Of a DNA stretch of 64,000 nucleotides, positions 54,749 to 64,000 are shown piece after piece. Position 1 is the stretch's first letter; every line of letters begins with the position of its first letter. Source of the stretch: Haloarcula pelagica. Its GTDB lineage: Archaea > Halobacteriota > Halobacteria > Halobacteriales > Haloarculaceae. The position numbers and the translations under genes are program-made. Under the pieces are notes generated by a model. That model was not told where the DNA came from. It did no database searches and saw only the letters and a list, made by a program, of their open reading frames with translations. The stretch spans positions 2,232,001 to 2,296,000 of the forward strand of contig NZ_CP126161.1 in NCBI RefSeq assembly GCF_030127105.1, written 5' to 3'.

Positions 54749-54831
54749 AAGGGGTGTGTGGCTAGCTGTTTAACCACCGCTTACCCGCGGTCGGACGAAC
54801 ATACTTGTCGCCTGGTGTGGTAGTAACGGGC

Positions 54832-55539
54832 ATGGATTCCCACGGTGGTGACGAACGTGGTGCGACGCGCCTGGAGTTCGATCTCTCGGCCAGTACGTAC
54901 CCGTTCGTCCTCGCGTCGGGACATGCGTCGTGTACGATCTCGCTGCAGCAGTGTCTCCCGAGCGGTGACGGGCTGTACACCGAGTTTTTCACCGTAGAGG
55001 GGGCCGACCCGGAGCGGTTCGTGGGGTTCGTGGAGGACGGGCGAGGAGAGGCCCGGGTCCTGAACCGAACCGACGACGGTGGACTCGTCGAGGTCGCCGT
55101 CGGGGAGCACTGCCCGGTCGTGACGCTCGCCGACGCCGGCGCGGTCCCGCGGACGGCCAGAGGGGCGGACGGAAACGGCGCGATCGTCGCCGACGTGCCG
55201 ACGGCGACCGACACCGCCGTCGTGATCGAGTCGTTCCTCGACGCTCATCCGGCGGCCGAGCTGGCGGCGAAACAACAGCGCGAGTCGATCGCCCCGCTGT
55301 TCGGGTTCCGGGACTACGCGGCTCTCACGGACACGCTGACCGACCGCCAGCGCGACGTGCTGGCGACGGCACACGAGGCCGGATACTACGAGTGGCCCCG
55401 TGAGACTACCGCCGAGGAGTTAGCGAGCAGACTGGACATCTCCGCGCCGACGCTGCACAAGCACCTCCGGATGGCCGAACGGAAGCTCGCCGCCGCGCTG
55501 CTTGCCTGTCCACACGAGGAGTCGGCGCTCGACGACTGA
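54832..55539 (+). CDS. Bat-type HTH-10 transcription regulator
   Basis: A 235-residue regulator. The N-terminal region (TRLEFDLSASTYPFVLASGH) resembles the bacterioopsin-activator sensor half. The C-terminal HTH-10 domain is unmistakable: LTDRQRDVLATAHEAGYYEW, PRETTAEELASRLDISAPTL, HKHLRMAERKLAAALL. The target genes are unknown. A TATA-like atactt about 27-32 bases upstream supports the ATG at 54832. Its stop is directly adjacent to the convergent mutS stop. Confidence 0.9.
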   Translation: MDSHGGDERGATRLEFDLSASTYPFVLASGHASCTISLQQCLPSGDGLYTEFFTVEGADPERFVGFVEDGRGEARVLNRTDDGGLVEVAVGEHCPVVTLADAGAVPRTARGADGNGAIVADVPTATDTAVVIESFLDAHPAAELAAKQQRESIAPLFGFRDYAALTDTLTDRQRDVLATAHEAGYYEWPRETTAEELASRLDISAPTLHKHLRMAERKLAAALLACPHEESALDD

Positions 55540-58221
55540 CTACTCGATCCGGTCCGCCAGCGTCGCCAGCGTGTTCATCGCCTCCAGGGGCGTCATCGTC
55601 GCCACGTCGGTCTCCCGAAGCGTCTCCCGGACCGACGCCGGGAGGGTCCCGTCCGCCGTGTCGGGGTCGTCCACCGCTCCGTGGCCGTCCTGCTCGGGAT
55701 CGCCGGTCGAGTGCTCGTCTGATCTCCCCGGCCGGTCCCGGTCTAACAGCGCCCGTGAGCGTTCGACGACGGCATCGGGTACGCCGGCCATCTCGGCCAC
55801 CTCGACGCCGTAGGAGGCCCCGGCCGGCCCGGCCGCGAGTTCGTGGTCGAAGACGACCTCGTCGCCGGGACTGGTCTCGAAGTGGCGGTTGACGACGCCG
55901 GGCAGGTCGGCCGCCGCGTCGGTCAGATCGTGGTGGTGGGTCGCAAACAGCGTGTAGGCGCCGACCTCGTCGTGGAGGTACTCCGTGACAGCCCGTGCGA
56001 TCGCCAGCCCGTCGGCCGTCGAGGTCCCGCGCCCGACCTCGTCCAGCAGGACCAGCGAGTCCGTCGTCGCCGACTGGAGGATCGTCGCGAGTTCGCTCAT
56101 CTCGATCATGAACGTCGAGCGCCCGCCGGCGATGTCGTCGCTGGCGCCGACCCGCGTGAACACCCGGTCCAGGATCGGGACGGACGCGGACTCGGCAGGG
56201 ACGAAACTCCCGGCCTGGGCCAGCAGGCAGAGACAGGCGACCTGGCGCATGTAGGTCGACTTCCCGCTCATGTTGGGGCCAGTGATGACCGCGAAGTGGG
56301 GCGAGTCCTCGTCGCCGGCGTGGTCGCCGACGGCGCCCAGGTGCGTGTCGTTGGGGACGAAGGCGTCCTCGGCCCGCTCGACGACTGGATGGCGACCCGC
56401 CGTGATGTCGATGCCGTCGGCACCCACGGCCGGCCGGACGTAGTCGTGCCGGGCGGCGACGGTCCCGAACGAGACCAGCACGTCCAACCGCGCGAGCCGG
56501 TCGGCGAGCGCCTGGACCCGCTCGGCCTCGTCGGCGACCGTCTCCCGGACCGCCCGGAAGAGGTCGTACTCCAGGTCGTCGGCGGCCGTCTCGGCCCGCA
56601 TGATCTCCTCCTCGCGGGCCTTCAGTTCCGGCGTGTAGAACCGCTCGCTGTTTTTCAGCGTCTGGCGGCGCTGGTAGTCCTCGGGCACCGCGTCGAGGTT
56701 GGCGTTTGTCACCTCGATGTAGTAGCCGTGGACGCTGTTGTGGCCGACCTTCAGCGAGTCGATGCCGGTCCGCTCGCGTTCCGTCGATTCGAGGTCGTCG
56801 ATCCACTGTTTGCCCGATCGCTCGGTCGAGCGCAACTCGTCCAGTTCGTCGTCGTACCCCTCCCTGATGACCCCGCCCTCGGTGATCTCCTGGGGCGGAT
56901 CGGGCCGGATCGCGGCCTCGATCTCCTCGCGCACGTCGCTCAGCGGGTCGAGTGTGGCGTGCAGGTCCGCGAGCAGCCGCGCGTCGGCGTCGGCCACCTG
57001 CTCGCGGATGTCGGGGACGACCCCGAGTGTCGCGGCCAGCGACCGCAGGTCCCGGGCGTTCGCCCGGCCCCGCGAGACCCGCGAGATCAGCCGTTCGAGG
57101 TCGTACACCTCGCTCAGCAGTTCGTGCAGTCGCTCCCGAGTGGCGGGGTCCCGTTTCAGCGCCCCGACGGCCTCGTGACGGCCGGCGATACGGTCCTCGT
57201 CCAGCAGCGGCCGCCGGAGCCAGTCGGTCAGCTCCCGCCGGCCGAGCGCACACGCCGTCTCGTCGACGGTGTCGACCAGTGTCCGGTTCTCGTGGCCCCG
57301 CACCGACCGGCGCTCGAACAGCTCCAGGCTCTCGACGGCGACGGCGTCCAGCAGCATGTACTGGCGCGGGTCGTACCGCGTGAGGTGGTTGAGATACCCC
57401 AGTGTCTCCGTGGGGTCGTCCTCGCCGGTCGGCTCCCCGTCCGGGCCGACCGCGCCGCTGTTGCCCCGCGTGTACTCCGCGTAGGCCAGCAGGGCGCCAC
57501 AGGCCTGGATCTCGCTGTCGCCGGCCAGCAGCCGTTCGGGCGGGCCGAAGTACCGCCCGACGAGGTCGGCGGCCGCCTCACGCTCGAAGACCGACGGGTC
57601 GTACGCCGAGACGAGACACGAGGGGCCAAAGACAGCCTCCTCGTCGATGTCGACACCGGGACCGACGATAGCCTCGGCGGGGCCGAAGCGGCTCAGCTCG
57701 TCCGTGACGGCCGTCTCCGAGCCGACGCTGGTCGCGTAGCAGTCGCCGGTCGAGACATCCAGCAGCGCCAGCCCGTACTCGTCGCCGCGGGCCAGCGCCG
57801 CGACGTAGTTGTTGTCCGCACCCCCCAGCAGTTCGGCTTCGGTCAGGGTGCCGGGCGTGACGATCCGGGTCACCGCCCGCTCGACGACGCCGGTGACCGC
57901 GTCCGGGTCTTCGACCTGATCGGCGATGGCGACCCGGTAGCCCGCGTCCAGCAGCGTCTCGACGTACGATTCGGCGTTGTCGATGGGGATGCCGGCCATC
58001 GGGTACTCGCCGGTGGAGTCGGTCCGCTGTGTCAGCGTGATCTCACAGAGCCGTGCGACCCGCTCGGCCGCCTCACAGAAGGCCTCGTAGAAGTCCCCGA
58101 CCTGGAAGAGCACGAGCGCGTCGTCGTACTGCCGACACAGCTCGAAGTACTGGGCCATCATCGGCGTCAGCTCGTCGTCCAGCTCGGCCATCTTCTCGGG
58201 TGGGCCAAGCGCAGCGTCCAT
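55540..58221 (-). CDS. mutS: DNA mismatch repair protein MutS
   Basis: An 893-residue MutS1. Domain I has the mismatch-reading loop in [20 protein letters not shown] (FxE type, F-Y-E). The core and clamp follow. The ATPase has Walker [10 protein letters not shown] near residue 648, Walker B/D-loop region [20 protein letters not shown] and [11 protein letters not shown]. An acidic insert ([18 protein letters not shown]) precedes the C-terminus. The start at 58221 ([20 protein letters not shown]) removes a basic upstream frame. No mutL follows, unlike many genomes. Confidence 0.95.
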
Positions 58222-58268
58222 GCACGACCCGGGGAGTCGGGCGGGCAAATACCCCACGGTCGGCCGGC

Positions 58269-59462
58269 TCAGGCGTCGCCGTCGGGGTGTGGCTCGTCGG
58301 ATCGGTGGCCGTCGGGTCGCTCCCCGTCCGTCGGGTCCCCCTCGCCGTCGGCGTCCGTATCCAGTGGATCGACCCCCGCCGCGTCCTCGTCCAGCGGCTC
58401 CTCGGGGGCGTCGTAGCGGAACCACTGCTCGCGCCCGAGCACGAGACAGACCCTCCTGTCGAGGTCCTCGATGACCCTGTTGTCAGTGTCGATGGCCACG
58501 TCGACGAGGCCTTCGAGGGAGTCGACGGTCACCGTCGGCGGCTCGTCGGCCCGCCTGGGCACCCGACCGGTGGTGATCCACTCGTCGAACTCCGCGCGCG
58601 TCTCCCGGTACGCGAGCCACTGGCGCTCGGCCTCGGAGACCGTCAGCCGGCCGGTGCGCCGCGCGGCGACGAGGCCGACCAGCCCACACAGCCCGACACC
58701 GAGAGCCAGGGGGCCGCCGAGACGACGGATCGGGCCGTATTCGGCCGGCACGGTGATACGCTCGCTCTGGCTGTCGGACGCGACGGCCGGTTCCGAGTCC
58801 TCGACGCGGAAGACGCTCCCGTCGGCCGTGATGCGCAGCCGGTTCGTCCTGGTGGCGTCGACCGGCTGGCCGTTCCGGGTCCCCGAGACGTTCGTCCGGG
58901 CGACCAGGGCGACTTCGAGCGTCCCGGGGGACCCGCCGAGTCGCTCCTCGATCCGCCGGGCCTCCGTGACGGCCGCCGTGGCGTTCACCGAGAACGGCAC
59001 GCTCGTCCGTTCGTTCGGCGAGAGCGAGTCGACGGTCGTCTCCGCGACCGGTCGTTCGACCGACCAGTAGACGGAGCCGTTCTCGCCCTCGCCCGTATCG
59101 ACCGAGCGAAAGACCAGTGCGATCGTCGTGGTCGCGTTCAGAGCGCCCCCGTCGCTCGCCGCGTAGGCGTAGGTCGCCGACCCGTTCAACCGCGGGCTGA
59201 CCCGCTGGAAGTAGACGCTCCGGTTCCGGAGCACCGTTCCCTCGGCGAAGGCCTCGCTCCCGTTGACGACACGCGCCCGATGCGAGAAATCGAGCGTGGA
59301 TCGCCAGGAGGAGGCCTCACGGGTCTCCGTCGTCGTCCCCGGTTCGACGTGGGTCGCGTAGGTGACGTAGCCACCGACGGCCCCGACGAGCAGGAGGACG
59401 GCGACGAGTACGGCGTAGTTGTCAGCGACGAGCGTCCGCAGGCGACGGCTCCGACGGGTCAT
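58269..59462 (-). CDS. DUF5305 membrane protein
   Basis: A 397-residue protein with an N-terminal helix ([20 protein letters not shown], residues 16-35), a beta-rich extracytoplasmic domain of about 210 residues containing [20 protein letters not shown] and [20 protein letters not shown], a second helix near 245-268, and a cytoplasmic tail ending in a highly acidic, Asp/Gly-rich stretch. This matches haloarchaeal DUF5305 proteins, commonly found next to signal peptidase I and DUF1102 genes. It lies 48 bases after the signal peptidase gene. Confidence 0.82.
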
Positions 59463-59510
59463 TCCATTTGGGATACTGGTTACTCTGTGGTAATCTCTTG
59501 GATTGTAACA

Positions 59511-60659
59511 CTACCTGAACCGGGAACGGAGTCGATCGAGCGAGGATGGGGCGTCCCGCGACCGCGAGCGCACCCGACCGGTGTCGACGAGCGCGGCCCC
59601 GAGCACGTAGAACGACCCCGCAAGCAGCGCGTCGATAGTGACGATCGGCGCCCACGGGTGGATCCGGTAGAGGCTCCGGATCGTCGACTGCGGCAGGAGG
59701 TGGAGATAGCGGTGCTCGACGACGAAGTAGCGGTAGTAGCCGGTGTCTTCCGGAGCCGTGATACTGAGCGTGGCGTTGACCGTCGACCGCGCCGGCACCA
59801 CCGTCTCTCGGGGTTCGAACGTGACGCCCTCGGTCACGGGTTCAACGTACGTGACCATCGGGACGAACCCGCCGTTGCCCAGCACGTACCGGGTCGATTC
59901 GGTCGTCCCCTGCTCGATGACACGGAGCCCCGGGGAGTCGCTCTCGGAGCTGATGACGCCGAACTCCTGTGGGCCGGCCGGGCCGACCATCGCGGCTGTC
60001 GCCGACAGCACGACCGCTCCCGCCAGGACGAGCAGGATCAGCCGGGCGCTCACGCCGGTCTGCCGGGACGTGTCCCGCCCCTCGCGGTTCCGGTCCCCGC
60101 CGACCAGGAGATCGACGACGTAGGCCGCGACCGAGAGCGCGACGAGCAGGTACGCGACCCCCTGTGTCCCGAGCAGCGACCGTGTCCCGGCGAGTTGTGC
60201 CAGCCGTTGCTGGACCGCTCCCAGTGTCTCCTGTGTCCCCGTCACGAGAACGCCGACGCCAGGGACGGAGACGACCGTCCCCCCCGGTTGCCAGACGACG
60301 GCGACGATCTGTGCGTCCGTCACCGGGGGTTCGCCGCCGTCCTGGTCGGTAAACGGGTTGTTGTCCCCGCGGGTGACGTAGCCCCGGTCGGTCCGGTCGA
60401 CGACCCGGTGGGTCGTCAGCCCGCCGCCCTGGATCTCCTCGGCCCGGAACGTGACGACATCGCCCTCGTCGACCGGACCCGCCAGCGCCGCCGGAATCGC
60501 GACGAACCCGTCGCCCGGGTCCAGCGTCGGCTGCATACTCCCCGTCGTGACGTAGCCCAGCAGGACCGGCTGTCCGAGGAGCTGTCCGACGACCATCGAC
60601 ACGAGGAACAGGACGACAACCACCTCTAGCAGTGTCTCGACCCAACTCCACACCCTCAT
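59511..60659 (-). CDS. Archaeal signal peptidase I (S26B, SipW-like) with C-terminal beta domain
   Basis: A 382-residue membrane protease. TM1 (8-27) is followed by the active-site Ser41 in TTGSMQPTLDPGD and a general-base His84 in GLTTHRVVD; His in place of Lys marks the ER/SipW (S26B) type. The region VTRGDNNPFTDQD completes the peptidase core. Unlike plain signal peptidases, it continues through two more helices (about 150-175, 192-214) into a beta-rich extracellular domain (VIEQGTTESTRYVLGNGGFV, PRETVVPARSTVNATLSI) and a last helix. The ATG at 60659 lies 23-28 bases after tttata, which decides the start. Confidence 0.88.
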   Translation of the reverse strand: MRVWSWVETLLEVVVVLFLVSMVVGQLLGQPVLLGYVTTGSMQPTLDPGDGFVAIPAALAGPVDEGDVVTFRAEEIQGGGLTTHRVVDRTDRGYVTRGDNNPFTDQDGGEPPVTDAQIVAVVWQPGGTVVSVPGVGVLVTGTQETLGAVQQRLAQLAGTRSLLGTQGVAYLLVALSVAAYVVDLLVGGDRNREGRDTSRQTGVSARLILLVLAGAVVLSATAAMVGPAGPQEFGVISSESDSPGLRVIEQGTTESTRYVLGNGGFVPMVTYVEPVTEGVTFEPRETVVPARSTVNATLSITAPEDTGYYRYFVVEHRYLHLLPQSTIRSLYRIHPWAPIVTIDALLAGSFYVLGAALVDTGRVRSRSRDAPSSLDRLRSRFR

Positions 60660-60681
60660 CGCCAGCGATTGGTCCTCCACG

Positions 60682-60687
60682 TATAAA
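60682..60687 (-). promoter_or_regulatory. TATA box of the signal peptidase gene
   Basis: The minus-strand tttata (plus-strand tataaa, 60682-60687) is a near-consensus TATA element 23-28 bases before the ATG at 60659. It implies a leaderless mRNA and rules against the GTG at 60680. Confidence 0.6.
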
Positions 60688-60720
60688 TTCCTGCTGGCCT
60701 GACAGGAACTCGCGACCGGT

Positions 60721-61650
60721 TCACGCCGACAGCCGCTCCTCGATCGACACCAGCGTGAACGACCCGATAAAGCCCAGCGCGTACCCGACGAGGTGGACGT
60801 ACAGGTTCAACACGCCGTCCCCGACGATCGGGTCGATGGGGAACGTGACGAACGGAACGGCGAGGAACAGGCCGGTCGCGAGGACGAACAACTCGAAGTG
60901 GCCGGGCCGGGTCGTCGTCGTGCGAAGCGCTGTCGTGAGTGCCGTGACGTGGTCGCGTACCGCCAGCGTGTACAGCACCAGCACCAGCGTGAGCGCTGCA
61001 ACGAGGCCGATCAGCGACGCGACCAGCACCGAGGTGACCGGGACGGTGACACCGCGGACCGGCACGCTCACCCGGTTGGTGGCGACGGCGCCCAGCGTCA
61101 GTACCGTGATGAGCTGGAGACCGAGAAAGAACAGCAGCGGCGCGGTCGCGTGCGTCGGGGCCACGTCGAACCGCCGGTCCAGATGCGCGGCGATCGCCAG
61201 CGGGAGGTACCCGAACAGCGCCATCGCCACGCCCGAAAACCCGACGCTGACGCCCTCGCGGACGATCGCCAGGTTCAGGTACGACAGCGCCGGCGGACAG
61301 ACGAGGACCAGCGAGACGAACACGACCCGGAACCGTTGCCGGTGGCCGCTCGCGACGCTCAGGGCGTAGCCGGTCGGCGCGAGGACGCCGTACGCGAGGA
61401 GGTTCCGTTGCAGATGCGACCCGTCCAGGTGGACGAACGGCGAGGCGATCGCCGTCCCGACCGACGGGGCGGCGTACTCGAAGACGAGCGCCCGGCGAAC
61501 GGGGAGCGGCAGCGACGCGACCGCGAGCAACACCGCGGGCACCGCGAGCAGGAGCGCGACATCGACGACGGTAGCGCGGTCGAACAGCCGGCTCACCGTC
61601 CGCGCCGTGACCGTCCGATCGGCAGCAGACTGCTCGCCCGGTCCGTTCAT
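60721..61650 (-). CDS. Rhomboid-like intramembrane serine protease
   Basis: A 309-residue protein with about seven hydrophobic helices. It carries the three rhomboid hallmarks: SHLQRNLLAYG (HxxxN, His79 and Asn83), the GxSx catalytic serine in VGFSGVAMALFGYLP (Ser139), and the catalytic-type His286 in YVHLVGYALGF in the last helices. A longer loop between the Ser and His helices is unusual. The ATG overlaps the stop of the upstream DUF1102 gene by four bases, so the two proteins are made together. The substrate is unknown. Confidence 0.8.
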   Translation of the reverse strand: MNGPGEQSAADRTVTARTVSRLFDRATVVDVALLLAVPAVLLAVASLPLPVRRALVFEYAAPSVGTAIASPFVHLDGSHLQRNLLAYGVLAPTGYALSVASGHRQRFRVVFVSLVLVCPPALSYLNLAIVREGVSVGFSGVAMALFGYLPLAIAAHLDRRFDVAPTHATAPLLFFLGLQLITVLTLGAVATNRVSVPVRGVTVPVTSVLVASLIGLVAALTLVLVLYTLAVRDHVTALTTALRTTTTRPGHFELFVLATGLFLAVPFVTFPIDPIVGDGVLNLYVHLVGYALGFIGSFTLVSIEERLSA

Positions 61651-62702
61651 TCCGGTTCGATGTCGTCCCCCCGGCGTTCGGCGGCCCGGCGCAGGAGATA
61701 CGCGAGCAGGAGCAGTGCGAGGAGCCCCCCCAGGACGACTCCCGGACGCTGTGCGAACCCGCCCAGTTCCGTCGGCTGCCCGCCGGCGGAGCCACCGTCT
61801 ACGGCCCCACCGGCGGCCGTCGTCTGGTTCCGCGTCGGCGTCGCGGTCCCGCCGTCTGTCCCGCCCACCGACGAGGAGACGCGGCCGTCGGTCGTCGGGG
61901 TCGGCGTGCCGGTTGCCTGGGGGGTCGGTGTCGACCCGTCGCCGTCGTCTCCGTTTTCGCTCGGTCGGCTGGGGGTCGCGATCGGCGTCGAGTCGTCCGA
62001 CGGATCGGGCGTCGCGGTCGGCGTCGGTTCCCGACGGTCGGTCCGGTCCGTGTCGTCGTCATCGTCGTCGACCCGTTCGGGCACCGACGTTGGGACCGGC
62101 GTCGGTTCCGGAGTCGCCGTCGGCTCCGGCGTAGGGATCGGCTCGGGCGTCGCCGTCTCCGTCGGCGGCGGCGTCGATCCGTCGGGGGTCTCGGCGTGGA
62201 CGGTGAACGAGTCGGCTTGGTCGACATCGTGTTCTCCGCGGGTGTCGATCCGCAACCCGACGTGGACCGTCATGTTCGGTCCGAGCACGACCGCGTTCGC
62301 CTCCCGTTCGAGGGAGCCGGCCGCCCCGCCGCTCCGGTAGAACCGGACATCCTCGGCGTCGTCCGTCAGCCACACCTTGGCCTGGTCGGAGCCCGTGTAC
62401 GTGATCGTGAATACGTTGCCGATTCGGGTCGTCGCGTCCTCTTTGACGCCGTCCGCGTCGGCGTAGGGGTTCGACTCACTCAACAGGAGTTCTATTTCGC
62501 CCTCCTCGTTGAGCACCGCGTACTTGCCGTTGTCGCCTTCCGCTGGCGCGAGGTGTACCTCGTCGTTGATGGCGTCGGTGCCCGACTGGGTGAACGGCGC
62601 CGCACCCGTCGGCACGAGCATCACTACCGATGCCAGTGCGAGTGCGGCGACGAGGGCGAGTGCGCGTCGGGACACGGTGGTCTCACCGGGTGTTGTAGTC
62701 AC
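61647..62702 (-). CDS. DUF1102-like secreted protein with Thr/Pro-rich stalk and C-terminal anchor
   Basis: A 351-residue protein. An N-terminal signal sequence (RRALALVAALALASVVMLVP) precedes a DUF1102/TasA-like beta domain (DEVHLAPAEGDNGKYAVLNE, FTITYTGSDQAKVWLTDDAE, VVLGPNMTVHVGLRIDTRGE) of about 140 residues. A Thr/Pro/Glu-rich low-complexity stalk fills about residues 165-310 and is probably glycosylated. One C-terminal helix (VVLGGLLALLLLAYLL) with a basic end anchors it. The start is GTG at 62702 or a GTG nine codons later. It overlaps the rhomboid gene. Confidence 0.78.
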   Translation of the reverse strand: MTTTPGETTVSRRALALVAALALASVVMLVPTGAAPFTQSGTDAINDEVHLAPAEGDNGKYAVLNEEGEIELLLSESNPYADADGVKEDATTRIGNVFTITYTGSDQAKVWLTDDAEDVRFYRSGGAAGSLEREANAVVLGPNMTVHVGLRIDTRGEHDVDQADSFTVHAETPDGSTPPPTETATPEPIPTPEPTATPEPTPVPTSVPERVDDDDDDTDRTDRREPTPTATPDPSDDSTPIATPSRPSENGDDGDGSTPTPQATGTPTPTTDGRVSSSVGGTDGGTATPTRNQTTAAGGAVDGGSAGGQPTELGGFAQRPGVVLGGLLALLLLAYLLRRAAERRGDDIEPE

Positions 62703-63010
62703 TACGATTTTGTATTTCTCTCTATGCGGGGGCGAAAAGACTGTTAGACGGTGTTTCGAAACCCTGTCAAACGCTGTCTAGATCGCTGACCACGCCGAAA
62801 CCGCGGACCAGAACTGCAAATACTCTGATTCCCTTCCAATGAGGAGGACGCTACTGGATATGGTGATAGCTGGGTGTACCGCCAGAAAGTCTGCCTCCTC
62901 CAACTCGACTCGCCAGACCGACGTATGGATCGTTGCTACGATGGAATCCCTATCTGTCAGAACGAGGGCAAAATACGGAACCGATGACGTGGACTCAGGC
63001 GGCCGTCTTC
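62703..63010. other. Intergenic region between the two DUF1102-type genes
   Basis: This 308-base region is clearly lower in GC than its surroundings. It contains the likely promoter of the anchored DUF1102 protein (AT-rich run near 62709-62720 read on the minus strand). I see no convincing gene; short open frames on the plus strand lack family resemblance. Confidence 0.5.
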
Positions 63011-63604
63011 TTAGAGGACATCGGACAGCATATCTCGGTTTCCACCGGTGGCAGCATGGATCGTCAGCGTTCCACCAGCGTCGTTGTCGGTCGAGCCCTT
63101 CGTTTCGATTGTCGCTTCGACATCGACACCGTCGGGCTGCACGAGCTTCGGGATATTGTCGACATCGCTGTAGTCATCGACACGTAGCGAAGTGCCCGCA
63201 GAAATTGCGACCGCCTCTTCACCGGACGCGGTCAGTTCGAGCGATTCGAGATTGAAACCGCTCGCTTCGATGACCACTCGCATATCTCCCGTGCCAGAAA
63301 TGTTACTGATGCGGAACAGCTCCCCGAAATTGTACGTCGAGTCGGGGTTGAGCCCTTCCGCATCACCGGGGAAGATACCGAGGTCGCTGTCCGAGTTGAA
63401 ATCGAGTTCGAGTTGTCCGTCGCTGGTGCCGGAGGCGTACGTGTCGTTGAGTGCCTGGATCTCGACGAACCCACTCGAGTCCGCGGCGACGTTCACTTCG
63501 GCAGTTCTTTCTGCTTCCGCTGTCTCGAAGGCGCCGGTACCCATTGCGGCCGCCGAACCGGCCGCGAGCGATCCCATTCCGATCAGGAATTTGCGTCGTT
63601 GCAT
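63011..63604 (-). CDS. DUF1102 exported protein (TasA/camelysin-like fibre subunit candidate)
   Basis: A 197-residue protein. A twin-arginine-type signal (QRRKFLIGMGSLAAGSAAAM) runs into the DUF1102 signature GTGAFETAEAERTAEVNVAA. A compact beta-sandwich follows (GFVEIQALNDTYASGTSDGQ, FGELFRISNISGTGDMRVVI, VAISAGTSLRVDD). The region around the signal end resembles SipW-processed TasA/camelysin precursors. No C-terminal anchor is present, so it is released or polymerises. A Shine-Dalgarno-like aaggaga lies shortly before the ATG at 63604, unlike the leaderless neighbours. Confidence 0.82.
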   Translation of the reverse strand: MQRRKFLIGMGSLAAGSAAAMGTGAFETAEAERTAEVNVAADSSGFVEIQALNDTYASGTSDGQLELDFNSDSDLGIFPGDAEGLNPDSTYNFGELFRISNISGTGDMRVVIEASGFNLESLELTASGEEAVAISAGTSLRVDDYSDVDNIPKLVQPDGVDVEATIETKGSTDNDAGGTLTIHAATGGNRDMLSDVL

Positions 63605-64000
63605 TGGTAGTCTCCTTTATGGCACCCACCCCCACAGGGTCGGTGCGCTATCGGATACAAGAGACGCCACGGGGATTGTAGTCCGCTCTTTGAGTCAGAT
63701 AACAGACCGATTGAGCGGCGGTATACTGACTTTGAACCGGACTGGCAACCCGGTTTGACCAACTTCACGCAGGCGACCTTGGTCCGGGCCACCTTCGAAA
63801 GAACTGTTGCGGAGCGGTACGCTCTTGCAGTGAGGCGCTGGCTCGGATGGACTCCCCGACACAATAATTGTAACCGTGGTTCGGAAGTCTGTCGCCCTCG
63901 ACACGGTTGTCTACGTTCAGAACGCACCCCCGACTGGATTAGTGGGGGAGAGTTGCCCTACGACTGGCTCCCGCTCCCGTAGGGTCCGTCCGCGTCCGTG
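63605..64000. other. Terminal region with no convincing gene; two small hairpins
   Basis: The last 396 bases have lower GC and no frame with recognisable family features on either strand. Two inverted repeats are visible near the end: ccccc/ggggg (63927-63931 with 63944-63948) and ccctac/gtaggg (63956-63961 with 63979-63984). They could belong to the end of a mobile element or to a terminator; the window edge prevents a decision. Confidence 0.4.

Follow-up and report, generated by a model that had tools for sequence, protein, structure and literature searches.

At one end of the window (the whole analysed stretch of 64,000 nt from the 4.46 Mb genome of the haloarchaeon Haloarcula pelagica), five minus-strand open reading frames follow one another, as an earlier note on this DNA had described. 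Four of them, covering 58269 to 62702, are spaced as in an operon, with a 4-base overlap followed by gaps of approximately 40 and 48 bases. The locus reaches past the window end (region L002; window position = L002 position + 51999) and includes a second pilin with a Tat signal and, in the opposite direction, a divergent DUF7344 gene and a TafC-like gene. The features are as follows:

63958..64000, minus strand: 3′ end of pilin 2 (206 aa; full gene L002:11959-12579, window 63958 to approximately 64578), matched by TafE and TafA models
63011..63604, minus strand: pilin 1, predicted to be Tat-exported, TafA/TafE type (197 aa); Pfam DUF1102 5e-6, sub-cut-off TafA/TafE scores, 9p0a by profile and by fold
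63593..63598, minus strand: twin arginines of the pilin 1 Tat signal (MQ-RR-KFLIG), invariant R3 and R4
63527..63529, minus strand: predicted mature N-terminus of pilin 1, F26 after GTGA, by analogy with 9p0a
63482..63508, minus strand: predicted donor strand of pilin 1, RTAEVNVAA; strand 34-41 of the model, with the R-x-V-x-V pattern, unaligned to filament structures
61647..62702, minus strand: membrane-anchored stalk in the TafF position (351 aa), with a pilin-like head, Thr/Pro linker and C-terminal helix, from profile alignment, model and helix prediction
61752..61769, minus strand: candidate C-terminal processing motif of the stalk, ELGGFA (residues 312-317), common to rhomboid-linked stalks
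61674..61748, minus strand: predicted C-terminal transmembrane helix of the stalk (residues 319-343), with basic residues at its end
60721..61650, minus strand: rhomboid protease associated with tafi (309 aa), with S139 (in GFSG) and H286 as its catalytic residues; Pfam Rhomboid 2.6e-4 and conserved residues
59511..60680, minus strand: S26 signal peptidase of the SipW/ER type (389 aa), Ser48/His91, with an extra C-terminal region; Pfam Peptidase_S26 8e-4, TIGR02228 and SipW models; inferred TafD position
58269..59462, minus strand: DUF5305 membrane protein (397 aa); Pfam 1e-54; inferred TafG position

The letters TafB, TafD and TafG for the regulator, the peptidase and the DUF5305 protein were assigned from gene order. 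The DUF5305 gene is present as a single copy in the genome. A PADLOC search returned no match to a defence function for the locus. The adjoining mutS gene (55540-58425) was rejected as a member of the set, being found beside DUF5305 in one of 81 loci. A BAT/HTH_10 regulator gene on the plus strand (54805-55539) adjoins mutS and is unlinked to the tafi-type locus. A bacterial-type promoter scan yielded two matches to the consensus, to which little meaning can be attached in an archaeon.

Both pilins carry the twin-arginine motif MQRRKFLIG, of which R3 and R4 are invariant across 52 homologues of pilin 1. The earlier note had proposed an exported DUF1102 subunit; the family holds and the signal predicts export, but the note overlooked that the signal is of the twin-arginine type. 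Pilin 1 scores 56.9 bits against the NCBIfam TafA model and 49.2 bits against TafE, which is significant and below the equivalog cut-offs of 190 and 155 bits, respectively; orthologue status was thus rejected. Pilin 2 (TafE 57.6 bits, TafA 38.5 bits) also falls below both cut-offs. The profile of the pilin family finds the solved Tafi pilus of Natrinema sp. J7-2 (PDB code: 9p0a) by sequence with an E value of 2.3e-33.

The AlphaFold2 model of pilin 1, calculated from the 52 homologues, is all-beta and of medium confidence (pLDDT 73, pTM 0.66). Its top structural match in VIA-align is again 9p0a (Z 9.0, rmsd 3.1 over 126 residues), followed by the bundling pili of Pyrobaculum (7ueg, Z 8.5), one unrelated domain and the threads of Sulfolobus (7pnb, Z 8.0), with self-complemented FimA lower (Z 7.2), although several unrelated beta-sandwiches also reach Z values of 7-8. 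This comparison had been set down beforehand as one that could refute the proposal, and it did not do so; it gives the modelled subunit the fold of donor-strand archaeal pilins and bears out the suggested link to archaeal bundling pili; Pyrobaculum and Sulfolobus are distant archaea, and their likeness is drawn from the fold alone. Together, the profile and structural matches to 9p0a place the subunit in the tafi-type pilin superfamily. Alignments to the archaeal filaments start at model residue 43-44 and omit strand 34-41, whereas those to self-complemented FimA start at residues 28-34, which suggests that this strand is the donor strand. An R-x-V-x-V strand follows the signal in 195 of 215 pilins across the surveyed loci. 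In 9p0a, 188 of 215 residues are resolved, which by residue count puts its start at F28 after GTGA; by analogy, mature pilin 1 is expected to start at F26.

Tafi are described as haloarchaeal fimbriae with Tat-exported subunits (Galeva et al., 2025, iScience 28:111793, in the wording of its citation in PMC12687288). Tat-type DUF1102-like pilins, a TafC-like protein, a DUF7344 (HTH) regulator, an S26 peptidase, an anchored stalk and a DUF5305 protein occur here together, as in tafi, and we consider the locus to be a divergent tafi (Tat-fimbria) locus with a probability of approximately 0.8. It differs in that its pilins lie far below the TafA and TafE cut-offs, the gene order is changed, a stalk with a Thr/Pro linker and single C-terminal helix replaces TafF, and an intact rhomboid accompanies a matching tail motif. 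Other genomes of the genus have a true tafi; in L122, TafA (246 bits), TafE (223 bits), TafC (552 bits) and TafF (563 bits) are encoded alongside a rhomboid, a DUF5305 protein, a regulator and an S26 peptidase. The host carries only the divergent version. The kind of system is therefore already known, and the locus, which had been offered as a new candidate, is a divergent relative of one described since 2025.

The S26 peptidase scores 52.1 bits against TIGR02228 (cut-off 51.85; E value 6.5e-14), and its S48, H91 and D106 are invariant in 20 sequences. The assignment to Ser/His S26 enzymes stands, but the SipW label proposed before misses the NCBIfam cut-off (NF046067, 38.9 of 190 bits). A long extracytoplasmic C-terminal region (approximately residues 236-335), which looks Ig-like on visual inspection and is accompanied by additional membrane helices, lies outside the part that signal peptidase models cover.

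The neighbourhood was first characterized in 81 loci around DUF5305 genes, 80 from other genomes' contigs and the host locus, which contain an S26 peptidase in 77, a Taf-family protein in 76, DUF7344 in 63 and a rhomboid in 26. A further collection of 80 named loci, obtained with the S26 alignment as query (Haloarcula, Halorubrum, Halobacterium, Halorientalis and others), shows the same gene order in most. Across 151 distinct loci, the recurring order is pilins, anchored stalk, rhomboid (where present), S26 peptidase and DUF5305. Of 145 genomes surveyed within the order, 93 contain DUF5305 and 89 a TafE-type protein; 86 have both, 49 neither and 10 only one (7 and 3, respectively). The co-occurrence survey had been named in advance as a possible refutation, and its outcome did not refute the proposal. 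The analysis supports a functional set that joins the fibre subunits and the anchored base or cap with an S26 peptidase of their own and a DUF5305 partner.

The stalk has no Pfam match and no match to TafF (NF052523) at an E value of 1. In a profile-profile alignment (hhalign), its head belongs to the same family as the pilin subunit (99.7%, E value 4e-26), and the best structural match of its model is likewise 9p0a (Z 9.4). Helices are predicted at residues 11-28 and 319-343. An anchored base or cap with a Thr/Pro stalk had been proposed; the pilin-family head and the anchor agree with this, but the anchor is a membrane helix and not the wall. The RTAEVNVA strand is absent from the region of the head that aligns to the pilins. 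Among 29 stalks with a locatable signal end, one has an R-x-V-x-V strand, and this protein (L158) proved to be a pilin that had been wrongly taken for a stalk. A pilin head with a groove and no donor strand would end a donor-strand fibre, and the membrane helix would put it at the cell end of the filament. The stalk is thus likely the terminus or base of the filament.

Directly downstream of the stalk lies the rhomboid, whose S139, G140 and H286 are invariant in 14 sequences; with the GxSG serine and the histidine, it is predicted to be a rhomboid protease. The earlier note had listed this gene among the maturation proteases, and the gene is indeed there, but the note did not single it out as what distinguishes the locus. 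Membership of the rhombosortase family was rejected on score (TIGR03902, 17.4 bits; cut-off 84). A rhomboid precedes the S26 gene in 58 of the 151 loci and is absent from 93, counts that are not independent since the loci share descent. Rhomboid-linked stalks end in a short E-P/L-x-G-F/I motif, a transmembrane helix and an Arg pair. Of the 58 rhomboid loci, 53 have a transmembrane-tailed stalk, which carries the strict pattern ahead of the helix, E-x(1-2)-[GA]-[FIV]-[GDASE], in 47 and a looser form in six (TELAGLG, LGGFGI, EPAGGS, EPSGTD, EPGSIG and EPSGLG). Among the 93 loci lacking a rhomboid, 69 also lack a transmembrane-tailed stalk and 24 have one, with the strict pattern in eight. Five of these eight matches (L087, L096, L100, L102 and L105) lie well upstream of the helix and were counted as ambiguous; one (L079) adjoins a rhomboid that is spread over different frames. 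The remaining two (L112 and L179) are genuine motif stalks, and in their genomes (G094 and G057) the rhomboid is encoded at another site (2e-79 and 3e-77). A search of the genomes with other or ambiguous tails found no match to this rhomboid in G063, G130, G005, G056, G070, G093, G131, G023, G064 or G033, weak matches in G015, G039 and G055 (9e-30 to 2e-25) and an intermediate one in G135 (2e-48). In G071, the tafi stalk ends in PGF, and the rhomboid lies 52 bases beyond another stalk, whose tail consists of REQSGFD, a helix and RRR. The motif is short and was defined after the tails had been inspected; the displaced rhomboids and G071 were examined later and agreed with it.

The co-distribution of rhomboid and tail motif, including the two displaced copies, suggests that the rhomboid and the motif-tailed stalk are a rhombosortase-like enzyme-substrate pair, a protease distributed with a tripartite C-terminal tail, subject to the relatedness of the loci and the shortness of the motif. 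Haft and Varghese proposed rhombosortase by the same logic, with adjacency in single-substrate genomes (PMC3237569). Like the GlyGly-CTERM system (PMC3237569), the rhomboid adjoins a single protein tailed by a motif, a transmembrane helix and a basic cluster; unlike it, the enzyme scores far below the model, the motif is E-P/L-x-G-F/I and not Gly/Ser-rich, and the host is archaeal. A general quality-control or regulatory protease that sits in the operon by chance, and does not process the stalk, would fit the many tafi-type loci that have no rhomboid and the influence of haloarchaeal rhomboids, perhaps indirect, on motility, adhesion and pilin levels (PMC11985538). We consider this unlikely, given the tight linkage of the gene to the stalk, the genome-wide association of motif and rhomboid, and four other rhomboid genes in the host for general duties. 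The rhomboid is decayed or missing in several tafi loci of the genus, which we read as recurrent loss: it was not found near other tafi clusters of the genus, and beside two (L054 in G138 and L056 in G012) it is broken into fragments of 81-102 aa with an internal stop.

Very long proteins with Taf-like domains (1437 and 2193 aa) adjoin this rhomboid subfamily elsewhere (L118:17-4330 and L230:140-6721) and are possibly large adhesins on the same system. Such proteins, and a locus known from sequence and models in place of microscopy, would also suit Taf-like proteins that are coat components or secreted adhesins sharing a peptidase. The homology to the pilin of a solved filament and the conserved donor strand make this reading very unlikely. 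A TasA/TapA biofilm fibre in the strict sense is the least probable of all: the Ser/His peptidase of the SipW kind (NF046067, 6e-10) dedicated to an all-beta sandwich subunit and the predicted start after G-A and before F, where mature TasA also starts, recall Bacillus, but the invariant twin-arginine signal, the weak match to TasA (8aur, Foldseek E value 0.48, rank 28) behind the Tafi, bundling-pilus and thread structures, and the additional rhomboid, DUF5305 protein and regulator do not. From the earlier proposal of a TasA-like fibre with its own signal peptidase, the kind of system survives, but its nearest relative is the Tat-exported tafi.

From the conserved gene order, the homologies and fold, the association of motif and rhomboid, the missing donor strand of the stalk and the decoupling of pilin from processing genes described below, we infer the following scheme for the divergent tafi locus. 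Pilins 1 and 2 would be exported folded through the Tat pathway, and the S26 peptidase of the locus would cleave after GTGA to free the N-terminal strand RTAEVNVA. The filament would grow as each pilin places its donor strand in the open groove of the next. The stalk head would accept a strand and give none; held at the cell end by the Thr/Pro linker and membrane helix, the stalk would form the base or terminator. The rhomboid might then cut the stalk at or near ELGGFA, just ahead of the helix, so that the filament base is released or passed to another anchor, as rhombosortase does with GlyGly-CTERM proteins. DUF5305 would be a membrane assembly partner, and the divergent DUF7344 protein would probably act as regulator.

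The natural substrates of haloarchaeal rhomboids have been named as future work (PMC11985538), and the locus supplies a defined candidate for an enzyme and its substrate, in which both the motif and the catalytic residues can be mutated. For tafi, it further suggests a terminal subunit, with a groove and no donor strand. The rhomboid-stalk pair, this terminal subunit and the exchange of pilin cassettes may be new here. We see an even chance that they form an undescribed haloarchaeal C-terminal sorting system, in which the rhomboid cuts the E-P/L-x-G-F/I-tailed terminal fimbria subunit from its helix to release or re-anchor the filament, and pilins are traded between genera as cassettes on a conserved chassis.

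The pilins and the processing genes have different nearest relatives. By processing genes, the closest locus is L131 of Halomicroarcula rubra (S26 78%, rhomboid 60% identity), whose pilins share only 36% and 47% identity with those of the host over partial length. Pilin 2 instead shares 83% identity with a protein of Salinibaculum litoreum and 79% with one of Halorubellus salinus, the S26 identities there being 51-52%. Pilin 1 shares 70% with a Halorubrum xinjiangense protein, at an S26 identity of 55%. Over 11,325 locus pairs, a pilin pair with at least 65% identity occurs in approximately 0.5-1.5% wherever the S26 identity is 50-89%, and reaches 15% only above 90%. The GC3 is 0.68 and 0.76 in the pilin genes and 0.84-0.92 in the four processing (chassis) genes. 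The overall GC content drops from approximately 70% to 55-60% across the stretch of pilin genes and spacers (L002:10500-13250; window 62499 onwards), which matches an exchange of this region. These identities and GC3 values suggest that pilin genes have passed between genera without the processing genes, which would be a clear case of surface subunits moving where the enzymes do not and would fit pressure from viruses or cell-cell recognition. Halomicroarcula rubra F13 itself contains two such loci of different architecture (L131 and L134), one with a rhomboid and one lacking it.
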